Below, in pieces: positions 11,217 through 31,832 of a stretch of 34,065 bases of DNA. The stretch is taken from assembly GCF_003003795.1 (NCBI RefSeq), contig NZ_PVWK01000021.1, forward strand, positions 1 to 34,065. The letters run 5' to 3'. Positions within the stretch are counted from its first letter, which is position 1; every line of letters begins with the position of its first letter. Under the pieces are notes generated by a model, which had not been told where the DNA came from, made no database searches, and saw only the letters and a program-made list of their open reading frames with translations. The translations under genes were made by a program, and so were the position numbers. This stretch comes from Stenomitos frigidus ULC18. GTDB taxonomy: Bacteria; Cyanobacteriota; Cyanobacteriia; Leptolyngbyales; Leptolyngbyaceae.

Positions 11217-12317
11217 TCATTTAACTGGGGCAAAGCCAGTGAGCGATTGCTCGGCAAGATCCCAAAAAACGGCAGTTTGCTCCTGGTGTTTGAGGATCAG
11301 CTGTGGGGTTGCTTGGACATCGCCGATCGCTTCACAAATTAGGTCGCGCTGATGAAACAGCGATCGCACCGCGTCAACGTTTTCAGGGCGAACACTCAGC
11401 AAAAAACCATAGCTGGGAAAACACAGCAGCCAGCGTTCCAGAAGCATTTCTGGCGGACAAGGAACGGCATCCAGATGCAGCACCGCACCACAGTTTGACG
11501 TTTCCAGCAACATCAGCAGCGTGCCGACGATGCCGCCCATGCTGATATCCTTACCAGCCTGACACAAACCCGACTCCGCCAGGTACGGTAGAAGCGCCAG
11601 ATCCCCACGCAGCTGCACCGGATCGGCTGTCGTTGCTGCGTTCCAAAACGGATGCTTGGGATGGGGTTTGCCGCGAAAGTCGGTGGCAATGAGTAGCCGA
11701 TCGCCCGGTTGTGCATCAAAGCTCGTCAACAGTTGGGTTGCGCGTCCCAAAATGGCAACCGACAGAGCATTGTAGTGACTGTGACCATTCGTGTGCCCAC
11801 CAACGATCGGCACACCATAGACCTCAGAGGCTGCCCTCATCCCATCCAATAATGAATCACTAAGGGTCTTTGCTTGACTCCATAGGGTATCCACCACCGC
11901 GATCGGGCGTCCTCCCATCGCATAGATGTCGCTCACATTCACCATCACCGCACACCAGCCTGCGAACCAGGGTTCTGTTTCCACCAACGACGGCAACATC
12001 CCTTCGGCTGCCATGAGGAGGTAGCCGGAACCATCGGGAATGGCGGCACAATCATCACCGAGGAGCGTGCGGGATGGGGGGTGAGGGGATGAGGACGTAG
12101 GGGAAGATGGGGAAGATGGGAAGTTTTGAGTTTTTAGCTTTGAGTTTTGAGTTTGACCTGAGCTTAAGCTGAAGGACGTTTTGAGTTTATTCTGACCGTT
12201 GACTGCTGACTGCTGACCGCCAACTTCTCCCAACCGACGCGCCACCGCTTGAATATCCTGCTTGTGCAAAATACCCAACGACTGCTGTAAGTGTGCGGTG
12301 AGCTCTGCTAGCTTCAA
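11217..12317 (-). CDS. AIR synthase-related protein of the Nit1 cluster (Sll0787 family)
   Basis: PurM/AIR-synthase-like ATP-binding fold with LGDDCAAIPDGSGYLLMAAEGM, the strand VMVNVSDIYAMGGRP and the glycine-rich GGIVGTLLMLLETS. The reaction in this family is not established. I chose the TTG at 12317: it overlaps the stop of the upstream gene, has AGGGA six bases ahead, and begins just before the conserved LLKLAELTAHLQQSLGILHKQDIQ. The open frame continues upstream to 12509, but that part only mirrors the neighbouring gene. About 50 residues at 12072-12221 (rich in S, Q, K, P) interrupt the domain before LGDDCAAI and are encoded by tandem repeats. Last gene of the five-gene set. Confidence 0.85.
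   Translation of the reverse strand: MKLAELTAHLQQSLGILHKQDIQAVARRLGEVGGQQSAVNGQNKLKTSFSLSSGQTQNSKLKTQNFPSSPSSPTSSSPHPPSRTLLGDDCAAIPDGSGYLLMAAEGMLPSLVETEPWFAGWCAVMVNVSDIYAMGGRPIAVVDTLWSQAKTLSDSLLDGMRAASEVYGVPIVGGHTNGHSHYNALSVAILGRATQLLTSFDAQPGDRLLIATDFRGKPHPKHPFWNAATTADPVQLRGDLALLPYLAESGLCQAGKDISMGGIVGTLLMLLETSNCGAVLHLDAVPCPPEMLLERWLLCFPSYGFLLSVRPENVDAVRSLFHQRDLICEAIGDVQATPQLILKHQEQTAVFWDLAEQSLTGFAPVK
12072..12221. repeat. Tandem repeat block inserted in frame in the AIR synthase-like gene
   Basis: AACTCAAA-type units (seen as GAGTTTTGAGTTT on the plus strand), a GACTGCTGACTGCTGACC block and purine-rich GGGGAAGATG units make up about 150 bases inside the coding region. The frame stays open, giving a peptide with SAVNGQ, SKLKTQN and SSPSSPTSS. 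The conserved domain resumes directly afterwards. Confidence 0.85.
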
Positions 12318-12922
12318 GAGGCTTCCCTGACGAAACTGGACAGGGCTGGGCGCTGCTCTGTGCCAGGTGGATAGTAGTTCAAGTCGGCTTCCATCAAGTG
12401 ATGTGGGAGCCCATGAATGGTCAATTCTTCGAGAGAATGCCAGTGTTGCCGTTGAAAGAAACGGACGTTTTGAAGCTGCACAGTCGCGAGAAAGCGATCG
12501 CATCCCCACGTATTGGCAGTAGTCACGGCTTTATAAATCAACCCCTTCCCAATACGGGCCGCACGACGATAGGTTTCATGCACACCCAGTCGCCCACCAT
12601 ACCAAAGACCGGGTTCTGGTTCATAGATTCTGACAACGCCCAGTACGGGAGAGTTTTGTAGACAATGAGTAGGATGTATTGAAAGTACAGGATGCTGCGC
12701 GAGCGGCAAGACAAGGGGTTCTCTAGTTTGACGATTCTGCATCTCGGCAGCTGCCTCTGCTGCCAGTGCCACGATCGGATAAGCGATCGCATCCATCTCA
12801 TCCACATCGCCACCCTGAAAGAGTTGCTGCTCCTCTACAAAAATCGAGTGCCTTAGCGCAAAGTAGCCACTCAATTTTGACGGAGATGTTGCTAATTTGA
12901 AGCAATAGGAATGCATGGACAT
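12314..12922 (-). CDS. GNAT-like N-acyltransferase of the Nit1 cluster (Sll0786/MSMEG_0567 family)
   Basis: 202 residues from the ATG at 12922 (a second ATG follows at 12916). The region YFALRHSIFVEEQQLF resembles acyl-homoserine-lactone-synthase/GNAT starts. The acetyl-CoA-binding core is LGVVRIYEPEPGLWYGGRLGVHETYRRAARIGKGLIYKA. A segment of about 30 residues (AEMQNRQTREPLVL to HCLQNS) just before LGVVRIYE looks like an insertion, but this is less certain. Upstream, the frame is open through a repeat to a GTG at 13015 that overlaps the radical SAM stop (TAGTG), so a leader of 31 repeat-encoded residues could be added by translational coupling. The downstream TTG start overlaps its stop. Confidence 0.83.
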   Translation of the reverse strand: MSMHSYCFKLATSPSKLSGYFALRHSIFVEEQQLFQGGDVDEMDAIAYPIVALAAEAAAEMQNRQTREPLVLPLAQHPVLSIHPTHCLQNSPVLGVVRIYEPEPGLWYGGRLGVHETYRRAARIGKGLIYKAVTTANTWGCDRFLATVQLQNVRFFQRQHWHSLEELTIHGLPHHLMEADLNYYPPGTEQRPALSSFVREAS

Positions 12923-12932
12923 GGGAAGGAGG

Positions 12933-13013
<81 letters not shown>

Positions 13014-13014
13014 A

Positions 13015-14100
13015 CTAAGACTCAAACGTTGAAAGCGCCGAACACGCACCACATTTGGCACAGCCTGCGTTGATGTCTTGAGAGAACATACCAGCGCGGT
13101 TGAGCATCGCACTGACCTGATGGTAGAGGGGCAGCATGAATTCACTGGTGGGTGGCGTGTGGTTTGCTAAAGGAGTGCCGCTGATGGGTACAAAGGGGAC
13201 GACAAAGGGGTAAACGCCGATCGCAATCAGGCGATCGCAAGCTGCCAGTAAGGTCGGCAAATCGTCGCCCAAACCTGCCAGCAGATAGGTGCTAACCTGT
13301 CCCCAGCCAAAGATTTTGACAGCGGCAGCAAACGCCTCGTAGTAATACTCCACGGGCACCGTCGCTTTCCCTGGCATGATGCGGGCGCGCACGTGAGGAT
13401 CGACGGCTTCGAGGTGCATGCCCAAGCTGTCTACCCCAGCAGCCTTCAGCCGCTCAAACCAGATGAAGTCATCGGGTGGTTCGCACTGTGCCTGGATGGG
13501 TAATGCAACCCGTTGCTTGATGGCTTTAGCGCATTCGGTTAGGTAGGCAGCACCCCGATCGCTCGTATTCGGCGTCCCGCTCGTCATGACCATATGCTTG
13601 ACGCCATCCAATCGCACAGCCGCTTCTGCGACTTCTGCAAGCTGGGCAGGCGTTTTGCGAGCGATCGTGCGCCCTGCTTCTAAGGACTGCCCGATCGCGC
13701 AAAACTGACAGGATGTCGCCGCATCGCTGTAACGCATACAGGTTTGTAGCACGGTGGTTGCTAGCACATCGTGACTATGCAGCAGCGCAATCTTCCAGTA
13801 GGGAATGCCATCTGCCGTCATCAAACCATAAAACTTCGGTTGCTGTGGAAACGCGATCGGCGCAACGGCTTCTTCGTTGCAATGCAGGGTGGCTTGTTCT
13901 GCAATGGAATCAAGCGTCACGGTATAGGGCGATCGGGATGCCGTACCCGTGTAGATCGGCACCATCACAGTGGTTCCATCTACCGTCACGGCTTTGTGGT
14001 CGGAGGGACCCGCACCCCCTTTGCGTCCAGTCACGCCACTCTCCTCCACTAATCGCAATCCATTGGTTTGGAGTTCTGTAATTAATTGCTGCTTGTTCAT
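13015..14100 (-). CDS. Radical SAM protein of the Nit1 cluster (Sll0785/MSMEG_0568 family)
   Basis: 361 residues. Cys121, Cys131 and Cys134 (C-x9-C-x2-C, with CQFCAIG) mark the likely Fe-S site, and a C-terminal CAKCGAC cluster could bind a second cluster or metal. A TIM-barrel-like pattern follows (MVMTSGTPN, QAQCEPPDD, GVDSLGMHLEAVD, STYLLAGLGDD), as in biotin-synthase-like radical SAM proteins. The reaction is unknown; the enzyme would act with the nitrilase, acyltransferase and AIR-synthase-like proteins of the same operon. There is no clear ribosome binding site before the ATG, and a repeat-rich gap of 81 bases precedes it. Confidence 0.87.
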   Translation of the reverse strand: MNKQQLITELQTNGLRLVEESGVTGRKGGAGPSDHKAVTVDGTTVMVPIYTGTASRSPYTVTLDSIAEQATLHCNEEAVAPIAFPQQPKFYGLMTADGIPYWKIALLHSHDVLATTVLQTCMRYSDAATSCQFCAIGQSLEAGRTIARKTPAQLAEVAEAAVRLDGVKHMVMTSGTPNTSDRGAAYLTECAKAIKQRVALPIQAQCEPPDDFIWFERLKAAGVDSLGMHLEAVDPHVRARIMPGKATVPVEYYYEAFAAAVKIFGWGQVSTYLLAGLGDDLPTLLAACDRLIAIGVYPFVVPFVPISGTPLANHTPPTSEFMLPLYHQVSAMLNRAGMFSQDINAGCAKCGACSALSTFES

Positions 14101-14112
14101 GGAGGGAGGGAA

Positions 14113-14180
14113 ATAAAGGCTAAAGGCTAAAGGAGTTTTTGGGAGGTTGATAGCTGATGGCTGATAGCTGACGGCTGACC
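14113..14180. repeat. Tandem repeat block at the nitrilase / radical SAM junction
   Basis: Three GGCTAAA-type units and several GCTGATA/GCTGACG units fill the gap between the nitrilase stop at 14182 and the radical SAM start. The units differ in detail from those at the neighbouring junctions. Confidence 0.75.
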
Positions 14181-14181
14181 A

Positions 14182-15198
14182 CTATGGCTCAAGCGTGAGA
14201 AATTCAGGCTGAGATAACGCGATCGGATTAATGCCGTTCTCTGTTTCCACTACATCGCCCGTTGTCTGCAAACCACTCACAACTGACCACTGACTGGGGT
14301 TCAACCTCAGTTGCAGCAAGTCTGGGCGAGAGTAATGCCCAACGCAATCCATCATGCGCTTACGCTTGGTGATGAGGGAAAAGTCCAGATCAGCGATCGC
14401 CATGCCCTCGCCTTCCGTAATGGGTGGGCAGAGGTGCGTGCCTTCGGGCCCAATAATGGCGGTATGACAACCTCCGCTCAGCACCTTCTGGAGCTTTTCA
14501 TCAGTGGTAATTTGCCCGACCTGCTCTGGTGACAGCCAGCCTGTGGCGTTAACCACAAAGCAGCCTGATTCCAGGGCATGATGGCGAATCGTCACTTCAA
14601 TCTGGTCAGCAAAAATCTGCCCCACCATCGACCCAGGAAACTGAGCACAGTGGATCTGCTCGTGCTGCGCCATCAGTGCGAACCGGGCTAGGGGGTTGTA
14701 ATGCTCCCAGCACGCCAGGGCACCGACTTTGCCCACTGCTGTATCCTGCACAGTTAAGCCTGCGCCATCGCCCTGTCCCCAAACCATTCGCTCGTGATAG
14801 GTTGGGGTAATTTTGCGTCGCTTCAGCAGCAGTGAACCATCGGCATCAAAAATGAGCTGCGTATTGTAGATGGAACCCCGATCGCGCTCATTCACACCCA
14901 ATACAACCACCATTTCGTACGATCGCGCCGCTCGACTAACCGCATCAGTCACAGCACCCGGCACCTCAACGGCTTCTTCATACAGCCGCATGTGCTCCTT
15001 ACCCATCATCACGGGCGGTTGGACAAAGGAAAAATACGGATAATAGGGCACAAAGGTCTCCGGGAAGACGACCAACTGTGCGCCTTCCTTGGCTGCGGTG
15101 GCGATCGCTTGCAGCACTTTCTCCGTTGTCCCATCCCGACTGAACAGCACCGGACTGATTTGTACGGCTGCGGCTCTAACGGTGCGTGAATAATCCAC
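14182..15198 (-). CDS. nit1: Nitrilase of the Nit1 cluster (Sll0784-like)
   Basis: 338 residues of the carbon-nitrogen hydrolase family. The triad is visible as Glu47 in [12 protein letters not shown], Lys129 in [11 protein letters not shown] and Cys163 in [12 protein letters not shown]. The CWEHYNPL signature is typical of true nitrilases, which hydrolyse R-CN to the acid and ammonia. The start is a GTG at 15198 with AGGAGG four bases upstream. Related Nit1C clusters in other bacteria have been tied to growth on cyanide as a nitrogen source, and the Synechocystis cluster responds to nitrogen starvation. Whether this strain does either is not shown here. The C-terminal [11 protein letters not shown] stretch may also derive from a CAGT-rich repeat. 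Confidence 0.93.
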
Positions 15199-27297: not shown

Positions 27298-30200
27298 TCA
27301 AACGATCGCAGACTCTGGCAATGCCCCCTGCATTCTAGCAAGCCAGTTGAGTAGACTATCAAGCTGCTGATCGGCGTTGAGTGCGCCCAATCCCCGTACC
27401 GTCACTTTGCTGGGCGTATAGACAAAGCGTGAGTGTAAGTGGTCTGGCAAATTGGCTTTGAGCAAATTCCAGGCAGGTTCTGCCATCGGCGTTTCCAGTA
27501 CAATGTGCTGAGTGCCGTCAGGCTTGATGCGAGAGAAGCCGAGCTTTTTAGCAATTTGCTTAAGCTCGACAATCCGCATGAGTTGCAGGGCCGCAAGCGG
27601 AATCGACCCATAGCGATCGCTCCAGTCTGCTGCAATTTCCGTGAGTTCTTGTTTGCCACTGGCAGAGGCAACGGCGCGATAGGCACTCATCTTTTGATCT
27701 AGATCAGGAATGTAGTCAGCGGGAATAAACGCCGTCAGGTTGAGGTCAATCTGCGTATCATCGACGGTAGGAATTTCTTGACCACGGATTTCGCCGATCG
27801 CTTCTTCCAGCATTTCGATGTAAAGGTCGAAGCCGATCGCATCCATTTGACCCGACTGTTCTGCACCCAACAGATTCCCCACGCCACGAATCTCCATATC
27901 ACGCACCGCAAGCTGGTAGCCAGAGCCAAGCTGCGCGAATTCCTGAATGGCTCGAAGGCGCTGCCGTGCCGTATCGGTCAACTGGTTTTGCTTCGGGTAA
28001 AACAGCCATGCGTGTGCCTGAATGCCTGCTCGTCCTACCCGTCCCCGCAACTGGTAAAGCTGCGACAGCCCAAACTTCTGGGCATCTTCAATCAGAATGG
28101 TGTTAACGCGAGGAATATCCAGCCCCGATTCAATAATCGTGGTGCAGACGAGGATATCAGCTTCACCTTCGCTAAAGGTCAGCATCGTGGTTTCCAACTC
28201 GGCTTCGGGCATTTGACCGTGGGCGATCGCAATGCGAATACTCGGTATCATTTCTCGCAGCCGGGTGGCAATTTCCTCAATGCCTTCTACACGGGGCACC
28301 ACGTAGAAAATCTGTCCTCCGCGATCGAGTTCCTGCCGCATGGCCGTGCGAATCGCCTCTGGATCATAGGGGGATAGATGGGTTTTAATCGGACGACGTG
28401 AGGGTGGCGGGGTCGTAATCAGGCTCATCTCGCGCACACCCGAAAGCGCCATGTAGAGCGTTCGTGGAATGGGCGTGGCGCTTAACGTCAACACATCTAC
28501 CTGCGTTCGCAGCGATTTGATTTTCTCCTTCTGGTTGACCCCAAACCGCTGCTCTTCATCGACCACCAGCAAGCCCAAGTCCTTTGGCTGCACATCTTTA
28601 CTCAGCAGTTGGTGCGTGCCCACGACAATGTCCAGTTCACCCGTTTTCAGGCGCTGCATGATGTCCTTGCGCTCTTGCGGTGTGCGAAAGCGGTTGAGTA
28701 AGCCAATCTGAATCGGGTAAGGGGCGAACCGTTCTTTCAGCGTATGGTAGTGCTGTTGCGTCAGGATAGTGGTTGGAGCCAACATGGCCACCTGTTTACC
28801 AGCCGTCACCGCTTTGAAAATAGCGCGAATGGCCACTTCGGTCTTGCCGAAGCCGACGTCCCCGCAGACGAGACGATCCATTGGGCGATCGCTCTGCATG
28901 TCTTGTTTGACATCTTGAGTTGCCTTGAGCTGATCGGGCGTCGGCTGATACGGGAAGGACTCTTCCATTTCCTCTTGCCAGGGCATATCAACGGGATAGG
29001 TAAAGCCGACCTGCTGGGCACGCTGGGCGTACAGTTGAAGCAGATCGACTGCCACTTTTTTGATCGCTTTGCGAACCTTGCTCTTGGTCTTTTCCCAGGC
29101 TTTGCTGGACATTTTGTTCAGTTCGGGTGTGGTGTCGCCTGCCCCTCGGAAACGCGAAAGCGAACTGAGCTGATCTGCTGCCACGCGTAGCAATCCATCG
29201 GCATACTGCAAGACCAGATATTCACGGGTTTCGTGGTTTAGCATCAGGCTTTCCAGCTTTAAGAAGCGACCAATACCATGATTTTTGTGCACCACATAAT
29301 CGCCCGGACGCAGTTTGTTTGGGTCAACCTGCTTGGATGCCGCACGGCGACGTTTCCGCACATAGCTAGGCGTTGCCAGAGAATGCTGCCCAAAGAACTC
29401 TCGGTCTGTAATGACGGCTAGCCGGAAGGTTGGCAGAATGAAGCCTTCGAGTTCCGCTAGCCCGGAATACTTCACCGCAACCGGGACGTGCTGCACCTGA
29501 AGCTTGTCGATCGCCAGGTAATCACGCGGATTGGGAATGAATTGCGCTGGGCAATCATGCTCTTGCAGCAACGACACCGATCGCGATGGTTGCGCCGACA
29601 CCAGCCAGATCGAAAAACCGCGATCGCGTTCATCCCGCAAGGTTTCTGCCAGCCTGCCAAACTGATGCGGAATCGCAGGCACTGGACGACTCGCCAAATT
29701 AATCGGCGCAGGCCCCTTATCTTGTGCCGTACGAACTTTCGGCTCTTCTGCCAGTTCTGATAAGTAGAGGTGATCGAACAGTTTGATCTCTGTCAAAGAC
29801 TCCGTAAACGGGCGATGAATGCGGGATAACTGCTGACCGCTGACCGGTGCCCGCTGACCGCTAATTTCCCCATATTGTTCTTCGGCGTGCTCAAACCACC
29901 GATCGCCATGCGCTTCCGATTGCTCTGGTTCGTCCATGGCAATCAGCGTGTCTTCTGGTAGGTAATCTAGCAGTGAAGCGGGTTTGTCGAAGGCAATGCC
30001 CAGAAAGCGACGAGAGCCTTCCAGCAGTTGCCCTTGATCAAATTTCTCTTGATCTTCTTCAGAGAGAAACGCCTTCACTGCAGCCGCTTTGCTACCTGTC
30101 AGCGCTGCTTGAATAATGGGGCCAAAATGGGTCGGTGTGAGTACAAGCTGTTCAATGCGATCGAGTGATCGTTGCGTTGCCGGGTCAAACTCCCGAATTT

Positions 30201-30996
30201 GGTCTAGCTCATCGCCAAACAATTCCAGTCGTATCGGCAGTTCAGACGCCACCGGAAACACGTCAATGATATCTCCACGTCGGCTCCACTGCCCTTCTGT
30301 TTCGACCAGCGGGACGCGATCGTAGCCCAGTCGAGCCAGTTCATGCCCCAATGTATCCAGATCGATTTCTGCGCCTCGCTTTAGCGTCAGACAGTAGGGC
30401 TTGAGGGCAGCGACAGGCGGCAAGTGAGGTTGGAGAGCACGTTCGGTGGTGACAATTGCCAGTGAGGAGTGAGGAGTAAGGGGTGAGGGGGAAGAGTTTT
30501 GAGTAGCGCTAGCTCCGAAGGAGCCACTTTGTGTTTCTTGTATGCCGAAGGCTTTACGCGCCGACAAGCTAGAGAGTTTTGAGTTTTGAGTTTTGAGTTC
30601 TGCTCCTCCTGCCTCCCCTGCTCCCATCTCTTCCTGACTCCTCTCTCCTCTCCCCTCTCCCTTTACCAAATCCGCCAACACCTGCAACTGCCCCCAAACC
30701 ATCTCCGATTCAGGATCAAACGGCTCGTAGGGCGATGACTCTGAAGTGGGGTAGAAGTGAATGGTTTGCCAGCCCATTGCTTCCAGTTGGGCAGTCCAGC
30801 GTCCGGCTTCTTCGAGCGTGGCGGTGACGACCAACAGGTTGCGGGATTGAGCTTGCGCCAGGGCAGAACTGACCAATCCTTTGGGCAATCGTGCCAAGCC
30901 GTTCAGCTTCAAATGCTTATGCTGCTGAAGTTTCGCTAAGAGTTCTGTTGTGAGGGGCGATCGCCCCAGGGCACGAGTGATGGAAGAAAACGCCAT
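27298..30996 (-). CDS. mfd: Transcription-repair coupling factor
   Basis: 1232 residues, longer than the usual 1150 or so. It removes RNA polymerase stalled at lesions and recruits UvrA. The UvrB-like N-terminal region is followed by the RNA polymerase-interacting CarD-like part ([14 protein letters not shown]). The superfamily 2 motor has Walker [16 protein letters not shown] in [23 protein letters not shown] and [14 protein letters not shown]-terminal domain closes the protein. Two stretches do not fit: residues about 113-178 (30463-30660) and about 14 residues near 29826-29868. Both are encoded by tandem repeats inserted in frame. The promoter and first codons are duplicated at 31701-31832. 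Confidence 0.97.
29826..29868. repeat. Short CGCTGAC repeat in frame inside mfd
   Basis: CTGCTGACCGCTGACC and CCGCTGACCGCTAA units encode [14 protein letters not shown], placed between the YGE and RIHRPF segments. It is the same heptamer family as at 12933-13013. Confidence 0.75.
30463..30660. repeat. 198-base composite repeat inserted in frame in mfd
   Basis: GTGAGGA-type units, a core with GCTAGCTCCGAAGGAGC and TGCCGAAGGC hairpins, AACTCAAA-type units and CTCC-rich units add about 66 low-complexity residues (positions about 113-178) to the UvrB-like domain. Part of the core matches the palindrome at 1622-1672. Confidence 0.85.
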
Positions 30997-31086
30997 GTTG
31001 AAGCTACGCAGTCTAATGAGAAGAGTTACCTATCTTCATCATAGATGGCTTGTTGTGTGGCTTCAGTTCTAAGTGAAGCGATCGCA
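30955..31086. repeat. Duplicated segment, copy 1 (mfd promoter and first codons)
   Basis: This copy is aligned without gaps to 31701-31832 (offset 746), with about 117 of 132 bases identical by eye. It covers the first 14 codons of mfd and about 90 bases upstream. Confidence 0.9.
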
Positions 31087-31535: not shown

Positions 31536-31700
31536 AAACTTTTCCGCTAGTACGATTAGTCCCAACCGAAAGGACATGCAGAAATCGATCGCTGCTTCAA
31601 GCTTACCTGTTATGCAAACAGTCGGCTCAACCGAGAGATAGCGATCGCCACCACACCGACTCACCGCTTGGGGTTCTTACCGTTAATTCAAAGAGGGCGG

Positions 31701-31832
31701 GAGCGATCGCCCCAGAGCATGAGTGATGGCAGAAAACGCCATGTTGAAGCTACGCAATCTAAGGAGAAGAGTTACCTATCTTCATCATAGAAAGCTTGTT
31801 GGGTTACATCAGTTTTGAGTGAGGCGATCGCT
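31701..31832. repeat. Duplicated segment, copy 2 (mfd promoter and truncated start)
   Basis: This copy contains an ATG at 31742 (minus strand) that reads MAFSAITHALGRS, like the start of mfd, then diverges and stops at a TAA a few codons later. The upstream part copies the mfd promoter region, so it may still fire toward hicBA. Confidence 0.9.

Follow-up and report, generated by a model that had tools for sequence, protein, structure and literature searches.

Heptanucleotide repeats and a nested small dispersed element read in frame within a predicted loop of Mfd in Stenomitos frigidus, with repeat-filled loops in other cyanobacteria

The 66 residues encoded by positions 30463-30660 in the mfd gene of Stenomitos frigidus ULC18 were best explained as a translated cluster of heptanucleotide repeats that encloses a small dispersed hairpin element, the whole captured by a surface loop of the N-terminal (UvrB-like) region of Mfd that is predicted to be disordered. 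We give this explanation a probability of about 0.8. The segment is made of repeats that are dispersed in the genome, it is open in frame and sits in a permissive loop, and different 7-nt repeats fill the same loop elsewhere. Positions are those of the window, the whole analysed stretch of 34,065 nt, which sits on contig 58 of the genome (7.0 Mb, 167 contigs).

Results

Structure of the mfd segment

The mfd gene is located at 27298-30996 on the minus strand and is intact, encoding the transcription-repair coupling factor (1232 aa) without an internal stop. The protein showed Pfam matches to UvrB_inter, CarD_TRCF_RID, DEAD, Helicase_C, and TRCF. A sequence-only reading of the window had proposed that a composite repeat adds about 66 residues to Mfd, and the segment was found to comprise exactly 66 codons in an open frame, corresponding to residues 113-178. 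The row of repeat types read through in frame, including two small hairpins, was also recovered, as both hairpins were found and no internal stop interrupts them. The same reading called Mfd an essential-type repair protein, which needs correction from general knowledge, since Mfd is not usually an essential protein. On the coding strand, the segment runs from purine-rich heptads through AAAACTC heptads, the 73-nt element, and a heptad remnant to pyrimidine-rich heptads. The features are as follows.

30460..30669, minus strand: variable loop of 70 aa (LVK...SSL), between the anchor WGQLQVLAD and a 15-residue anchor
30602..30660, minus strand: purine-rich tract on the coding strand, GGGAGAGG-type heptads, encoding a 20-residue peptide
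30574..30601, minus strand: AAAACTC heptads on the coding strand, encoding the peptide ELKTQNSKL
30501..30573, minus strand: 73-nt form of the small dispersed element, TCTAGC...GCTACTC, with two hairpins
30534..30559: module TTTCTTGTATGCCGAAGGCTTTACGC, which includes the second hairpin
30543-30552: second hairpin, TGCCGAAGGC
30512..30524: first hairpin, GCTCCGAAGGAGC
30463..30500, minus strand: heptad remnant and pyrimidine-rich tract on the coding strand, encoding a 15-residue peptide
29813..29862, minus strand: second mfd repeat, degenerate GCGGTCA heptads in another variable loop (residues ~379-394), encoding a 13-residue peptide

The uninterrupted AAAACTC run in the segment extends over three to four units only. 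The GCGGTCA heptads of the second repeat fell under the strict array threshold in the window genome and over it in relatives. When the fold of the whole segment was compared with shuffles, the coding strand gave a z of -1.7 (7 of 200 shuffles were as good) and the other strand -0.6. A large stem of the purine and pyrimidine tracts was accordingly rejected; its arms pair, yet barely better than expected from composition. An Rfam scan of the segment returned three matches, every one of them far under the gathering score. In addition, the mfd 5' end together with the region preceding it (30954-31085) is directly duplicated at 31700-31831, about 750 bp upstream of the gene, with 89% identity.

In an AlphaFold2 model built with 44 sequences, pLDDT was below 50 at residues 116-175, as well as at 85-89 and 437-450, and above 80 across most of residues 181-410. 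In the UvrB-like N-terminal region of the model, the segment is preceded by a helix (103-116) and followed by a strand (179-184). In Mfd of M. smegmatis, whose residues 140 to 152 aligned to 112 to 179 here, about 11 residues were present at the loop site. From their pLDDT, residues 116-175 are predicted to form a disordered surface loop, which would be a permissive site.

Dispersed copies of the composite and its modules

The genome search for the same composite that the sequence-only reading had suggested recovered a near-identical core at no fewer than five other places (15 of 144 first-look candidates scored). The 93-nt core at 30493-30585 was matched over 91-93 nt at 99-100% identity on contigs C19, C133, C129, C105, and C7, and a further match on C89 showed 95% identity; with Mfd included, the genome holds at least six near-identical copies. 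This recurrence is far beyond chance. The core copy number is a lower bound because 15 of the 144 candidates were scored, and the searches with the composite (40 of 387 candidates scored) and with the L144 loop described below (40 of 465) likewise gave lower bounds.

The two hairpins were then compared as separate patterns. GCTCCGAAGGAGC occurred 11 times in the 7.0-Mb genome versus 0 for the reversed control, and all 11 places fall within matches of the mfd composite. The TTTCTTGTMTGCC module, which is the first 13 nt of TTTCTTGTATGCCGAAGGCTTTACGC and adjoins the second hairpin, was found at 28 genomic places (reversed control, 2), 9 of them within composite matches and 19 outside. None of these 19 outside places had both element ends within 60 nt; many of them resemble each other and other repeat families, often with GCCGCAAGGC replacing GCCGAAGGC. 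In related genomes, the stretch 30534..30559 was matched without the remainder of the core. Since GCTCCGAAGGAGC is confined to composite matches and the TTTCTTGTMTGCC module also occurs elsewhere, the two hairpins differ in behaviour, and the composite is therefore a mosaic and no single palindromic element. Another interspersed family of the window genome, GTAAGTGCAAAGCACTCGCT...TTTCTTGTATGCC...GGCTTTACGCAC, carries the module adjoining the second hairpin (L309, L310, L312, L313, L315, L319, L321, and L323-L325), and so does a third repeat set (L308, L317, and L326). At 1639-1669 and 1007-1037 of the window, a copy of the TTTCTTGTCTGCC module was seen within a repeat pair that ends in GCTATCACGTCCCT.

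A minimal form of the element had 25 genomic copies (control, 0), all of 28 nt although the pattern permitted other lengths, and these 28 nt include a CTC that is possibly a target duplication. AAAACTC was found immediately to the left in 23 of the 25 copies and AAAAC immediately to the right in 23 of 25. One of the five stem pairs varies on both sides (GC 6, AU 4, other 2; 12 distinct rows) and four are invariant. Of 500 shuffles, 4 equalled the covariation score and 25 the paired percentage, whereas the pair count was reached by 464 and the type count by all 500. The double changes in the one pair are a modest hint, short of proof, that the hairpin may be conserved. At the 13 of 19 element loci that could be printed in register, the element was bounded by AAAACTC-type units with unrelated outer flanks. 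Identity among the copies ends in the flanking heptads, and the outer tracts vary from copy to copy. The heptad pattern AACTCAAAACTC gave 490 matches in 7.0 Mb, in which overlapping matches within an array were counted separately; its reversed control (369 matches) is a rotation of the same array and hence an invalid control.

These copies bear on whether the composite might move autonomously and insert whole, as a MITE or as a REP mobilised by a RAYT transposase. The near-identical 91-93-nt copies at six places including Mfd, the 25 copies of the 28-nt form with heptads on both sides, and the Y1 transposase-like genes of the genome (5 Y1_Tnp matches) are consistent with such an element. However, the end of identity in the flanking heptads, the outer tracts that differ among copies, and a whole-segment fold of only z -1.7 argue against insertion as a unit, which we regard as rather unlikely. 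The element ends were found at none of four Y1_Tnp loci (four of the five matches), though L221 has one AAAACTC pair, and a link to RAYT transposases was rejected on this ground. At L222, a palindrome whose arms are 12 bp long, AGACCTCCGAGG...CCTCGGAGGTCT, was seen in two copies close to a Y1 transposase-like (RAYT-type) gene.

A misjoining of short repeats within mfd was also considered, given the draft state of the genome (167 contigs) and the presence of the core at no fewer than six places. The identical tract is just 93 nt, however, the frame is kept across the join, and related fillings were found in the same loop in the assemblies of relatives, which makes an assembly artefact extremely improbable.

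The same Mfd loop in other cyanobacteria

The loop was examined in a named set of Mfd genes (L081-L160, the best 80 of 471 relatives) and in a relatives set (L031-L060, the best 30 matches); the two sets share genomes, and their counts were not summed. Among the matches listed, the nearest named relatives were Tildeniella nuda and Leptolyngbya-like cyanobacteria, which places the host among the filamentous cyanobacteria of that group. In all 80 named genes (best 80 of 471), the loop was present in frame between both anchors, with a length of 8-85 residues and without a stop in any of them.

The period test was carried out on the 62 loops of at least 60 nt, the other 18 of 80 being shorter than 60 nt. 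A 7-nt period (lag-7 z > 3) was detected in 45 of the 62 loops, as against 4 of 310 windows taken elsewhere in these genes as controls, and the remaining 17 of 62 showed no significant 7-nt period. The mean self-match in the loops was 0.49, 0.43, and 0.41 at lags 7, 14, and 21, respectively, with the next highest value at 0.32, and the lag-7 mean of the controls was 0.25. In the relatives set, 11 of 21 loops and 6 of 105 control windows were periodic. A strict array test on whole Mfd genes gave lag-7 arrays in 38 of 80 (best 80 of 471), compared with 4 of 80 at lag 8, 2 of 80 at lag 9, and 0 of 80 at lags 5, 6, 10, and 11. As read off the array list, 28 of the 38 genes have the array in this loop and 10 only elsewhere; further arrays were located near residues 270-315, 340-410, and 440. 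Because lag 7 was found in 38 genes, lag 6 in none, and lag 9 in two, the arrays arise from a process with a 7-nt step at the DNA level rather than from the addition of codon units.

The fillings differed among lineages. Typically, Anabaena and Nostoc carried SQQSTVN arrays from AGTCAAC heptads, Nostoc also GDWGLG...NPQSPIP from GGGGACT and CCCCAAT, and close relatives GEGRGER...PHPTPHT. The loop of L144 (Nostoc) had at least 43 other matching stretches in its own genome, some of them overlapping (40 of 465 candidates scored). Within the window's genus, four species had a loop of 70-73 residues and three had one of 25-26, with differing repeats. The Mfd genes of G000, G004, and G005 have the element ends in common, thereby indicating that some filling was inherited and not gained repeatedly; loop counts are not independent, because the loops of related species share ancestry. 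The sequence-only reading had held that conservation in Mfd of many genera would speak against an added repeat. The repeat sequence is not conserved in Mfd, whereas the loop position is, and in many genera repeats fill the loop. Large tblastn spans in L095, L101, L136, and L137 were rejected as loop inserts, as they come from second partial mfd 3' copies. These partial copies (from residue 1101, 1128, 1167, or 1182 to 1232) follow the intact gene in all four of these cyanobacterial genomes.

Three loops, from L103 (Hassallia), L129 (uncultured cyanobacterium), and L140 (Tolypothrix), showed a 21-nt period, with self-matches of 0.82-0.84 at lag 21 and 0.54-0.62 at lag 7. Their arrays encode the heptapeptide QELSLNA and carry a TAA in another frame. 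Each is apparently a heptad array fixed in one frame, and its 21-nt period could be growth of the peptide unit under some selection.

Repeat arrays of units other than 3n in coding sequence resemble the layout of phase-variable genes, as reportedly with heptanucleotide repeats in Haemophilus, and a change of 7 nt would shift the frame. Heptad slippage in mfd, and in priA, might thus toggle repair as a contingency, or mutator, switch. A regular switch should show off states; however, none of the 80 named Mfd loops (best 80 of 471) was out of frame, and the pure AAAACTC run in mfd has just three to four units. Phase variation of mfd was rejected on the first of these counts, and we consider a switch of this kind very unlikely.

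Open frames of heptad arrays

As 7 and 3 have no common factor, the same seven codons turn up in a heptad array whichever frame is read. A heptad without a stop thus leaves all three frames of its strand open, and one with a stop closes them all once the array is long enough. Of all heptamers, 69% are stop-free on a chosen strand and 87% on one strand or both, and dinucleotide shuffles of the 198-nt segment had at least one open frame in 38% of cases and two or more, as observed, in 5.7%. The sequence-only reading had suggested a repeat family whose units tend to stay open in at least one frame; as a property of the family this was not upheld, since the heptad arithmetic and the shuffles account for it and a special openness had to be rejected. 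The pattern is broader than that reading could see, and its generalisation is mostly arithmetic. Exact tandem heptamer pairs in the 80 Mfd loops gave 21 loop-counts closed only on the antisense strand and 2 closed only on the sense strand (tallied from the list); 7 more loop-counts were of heptamer types closed on both strands, evidently in pairs too short to include the stop. The same loop is probably filled by heptads in many cyanobacteria because stop-free repeats can be open in all frames of one strand.

The element core has two open frames on the coding strand and a TAG in the third, and both open frames are in use. For the full-length element, frame A is used in Mfd, whereas frame B is used in an amidohydrolase-like protein (L006) and a WD40 protein (L007). 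Of the shorter or diverged forms, those of L015, L016, L024, and L027 are in frame A and those of PriA (L012) and L019 in frame B; the element of L016 sits right where its frame begins and is possibly not translated. If the peptide had a function, it would scarcely withstand the reading of one element in two frames as different peptides, which speaks for tolerance. This observation also weighs on the proposal that the loop peptide is functional, as a tuned flexible linker or interaction segment kept for its length or charge. The loop is long in Mfd of many lineages, and the regular QELSLNA heptapeptides from the 21-nt arrays (L103, L129, and L140) would suit such a role. Against it stand the two frames of the element, the range of 8-85 aa in loop length with widely different composition among species (best 80 of 471), the nearly three-fold difference in length among species of the same genus, and the disorder predicted by AlphaFold2. 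A functional peptide is unlikely on this evidence, and the loop peptide most likely has no specific function.

PriA, UvrC, and other host proteins

Because one composite copy falls in PriA, this protein was examined in the same way; the PriA and UvrC sets each comprised the best 30 matches. In PriA, the loop between the DEAD domain and the zinc region showed z > 3 in 12 of 26 loops versus 2 of 130 controls, a count that omits the 4 of 30 loci without anchors. In the strict test, lag-7 arrays were present in 10 of 30 genes and lag-6 arrays in none; as in Mfd, a few genes scored at lags 8 and 9, with lag-9 arrays in two. The PriA array of L241 is a run of masked letters and was uncounted (hence 10 of 30, not 11). 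None of 30 UvrC genes had a lag-7 array in the strict test; UvrC, itself encoded in the window, was the sole control, was picked once the Mfd result was known, and is a shorter protein than Mfd.

A census was made of 62 AACTCAAAACTC arrays, 61 from the first 100 of the 490 matches (contigs C1-C35) and one in a nurA-like gene, with genic and intergenic counts based on pattern matches and 58 genome stretches. Twenty of the 62 arrays lay inside a spanning stop-to-stop frame of at least 150 aa. Eight of these sit no more than 35 aa from the frame's upstream end and may not be translated; the other 12 are flanked on each side by at least 60 aa. The earlier suggestion that dispersed composite repeats are in frame in Mfd and in other proteins was thus borne out by 20 spanned arrays, 12 of them well internal. 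All 20 (frames of at least 150 aa) are in the stop-free orientation, which is forced because the reverse heptad GAGTTTT contains TGA.

A Pfam match was obtained for all 12 proteins with internal arrays. They are PriA, NurA, an RlmN-like radical SAM protein, a GNAT, a PLP decarboxylase, and an amidohydrolase, followed by a hydantoinase, a GT2, a kinase-WD40, a TPR, a NACHT-TIR, and an HTH/GrpE protein. The arrays of the TPR (C20) and NACHT-TIR (C22) proteins are a lone 12-nt match with no surrounding repeats and may be due to chance. A preference for DNA-repair genes was rejected, as PriA and NurA alone among the 12 internal census cases are too few to claim one.

An AIR-synthase case raised in the sequence-only reading was real. 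The repeats at 12113-12228 correspond to residues ~94-132 of the AIR-synthase-like ORF 11220-12509, and PF00586 begins at residue 151. Because they are N-terminal to PF00586, these repeats could be partly upstream of the true start. At 11220-15198 of the window, AIR-synthase-like, GNAT, radical SAM, and nitrilase genes are adjacent, several of them with heptads at gene edges, a group that may resemble a nitrilase-associated cluster.

Discussion

The best reading of these results is a recurrent capture of heptad and small-dispersed-repeat DNA by disordered loops, which is tolerated and filtered by stops and frame. Heptads and small elements would be copied around cyanobacterial genomes by slippage, by recombination or conversion between arrays, or by a mobile process. 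Selection would then retain only copies that are stop-free on the coding strand and sum to a multiple of three. As 7 is 1 modulo 3, the gain or loss of heptads could restore the downstream frame after an insertion.

The element has counterparts among known repeat systems. Elhai and colleagues are said to have described, in 2008, small dispersed repeats (SDRs) of Nostoc and its relatives that are embedded in tandem heptamers. SDRs are reportedly very short hairpin units of 21-27 nt, dispersed and inserted into one another. The 28-nt minimal unit found here, with its 25 copies flanked by AAAACTC, is similar to them in form, its length including the possible CTC target duplication, and it too is embedded in tandem heptamers (23 of 25 copies on the left and 23 of 25 on the right). 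Read-through as protein in conserved genes is added here.

Heptanucleotide repeats have also been reported from cyanobacteria. The GGGGA(C/T)T repeats (STRR) of Nostoc are described as 7-nt tandem arrays spread over the genome; in Nostoc PCC 7120, 68% of the G-rich arrays are given as intergenic, with more intragenic ones than in xanthomonads (PMC4692102). Tandem heptad arrays of TAACTGA are likewise described in another cyanobacterial study (PMC4679880). Our segment shares with them the tandem 7-nt units (lag-7 peaks in the loops and arrays at 30463-30660) and the many dispersed copies (490 AACTCAAAACTC matches, overlaps counted separately). However, the consulted parts of these papers deal with regulation, G-quadruplexes, and intergenic placement, and no fixed protein loop refilled across genera appears there (PMC4692102 and PMC4679880).

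Small repeats within proteins are known from other bacteria. Rickettsia palindromic elements (RPEs) and other MITEs are presented as small repeats tolerated in frame in conserved protein genes, with in-frame palindromic elements in conserved genes of both Rickettsia and enterobacteria; RPEs are palindromes of 105-146 bp with terminal inverted repeats (PMC2229807). Unlike an RPE, the mfd segment is a mosaic pieced together from heptads and hairpin modules, and its loop is filled in many genera. A single palindrome of 105-146 bp beyond composition was not found in the mfd segment (z -1.7 and -0.6; mosaic structure). Intragenic GTAG/CGTC REPs are reported to lie in many DNA synthesis and repair genes (uvrA, uvrB, recB, etc.), with flexible linkers or loops discussed as perhaps their sites and mutator effects speculated upon, and recB of two Xanthomonas is noted to have a REP at about the same site (PMC3733652). 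Our case resembles these in that repeats lie within nucleotide-excision and replication proteins, whereas heptads dominate here and mfd and priA are absent from the main text of that paper (PMC3733652). In the titles and abstract beginnings of open-licence papers, no description of heptad-filled loops in Mfd or in cyanobacterial proteins was found. The filling of the same Mfd and PriA loops by 7-nt repeats across cyanobacteria seems to be new.

A more speculative possibility, which we put forward tentatively, is that arrays of heptads serve as frame shims; with all three frames open and with length changes of 1 modulo 3, they may allow the capture of any small element in a coding loop, because heptads gained or lost afterwards would restore the frame of the host gene. 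Intragenic tandem repeats are expected to have three-base units. If heptads do act in this way, the dominance of 7-nt over 3n-nt units within these genes would be explained, and cyanobacteria would have a standing mechanism by which the loops of conserved proteins, Mfd and PriA among them, keep gaining or exchanging peptide.

The prevalence of 7-nt units in loops of Mfd and PriA ties a genome-wide repeat process of cyanobacteria to protein evolution and gives a simple rule for where heptads can go, namely where the strand is stop-free and all frames are open. It also calls for caution among annotators and structural biologists, as what is translated in such stretches is repeat DNA. For two helicases of DNA repair or replication, the filled loops provide a natural map of permissive sites.
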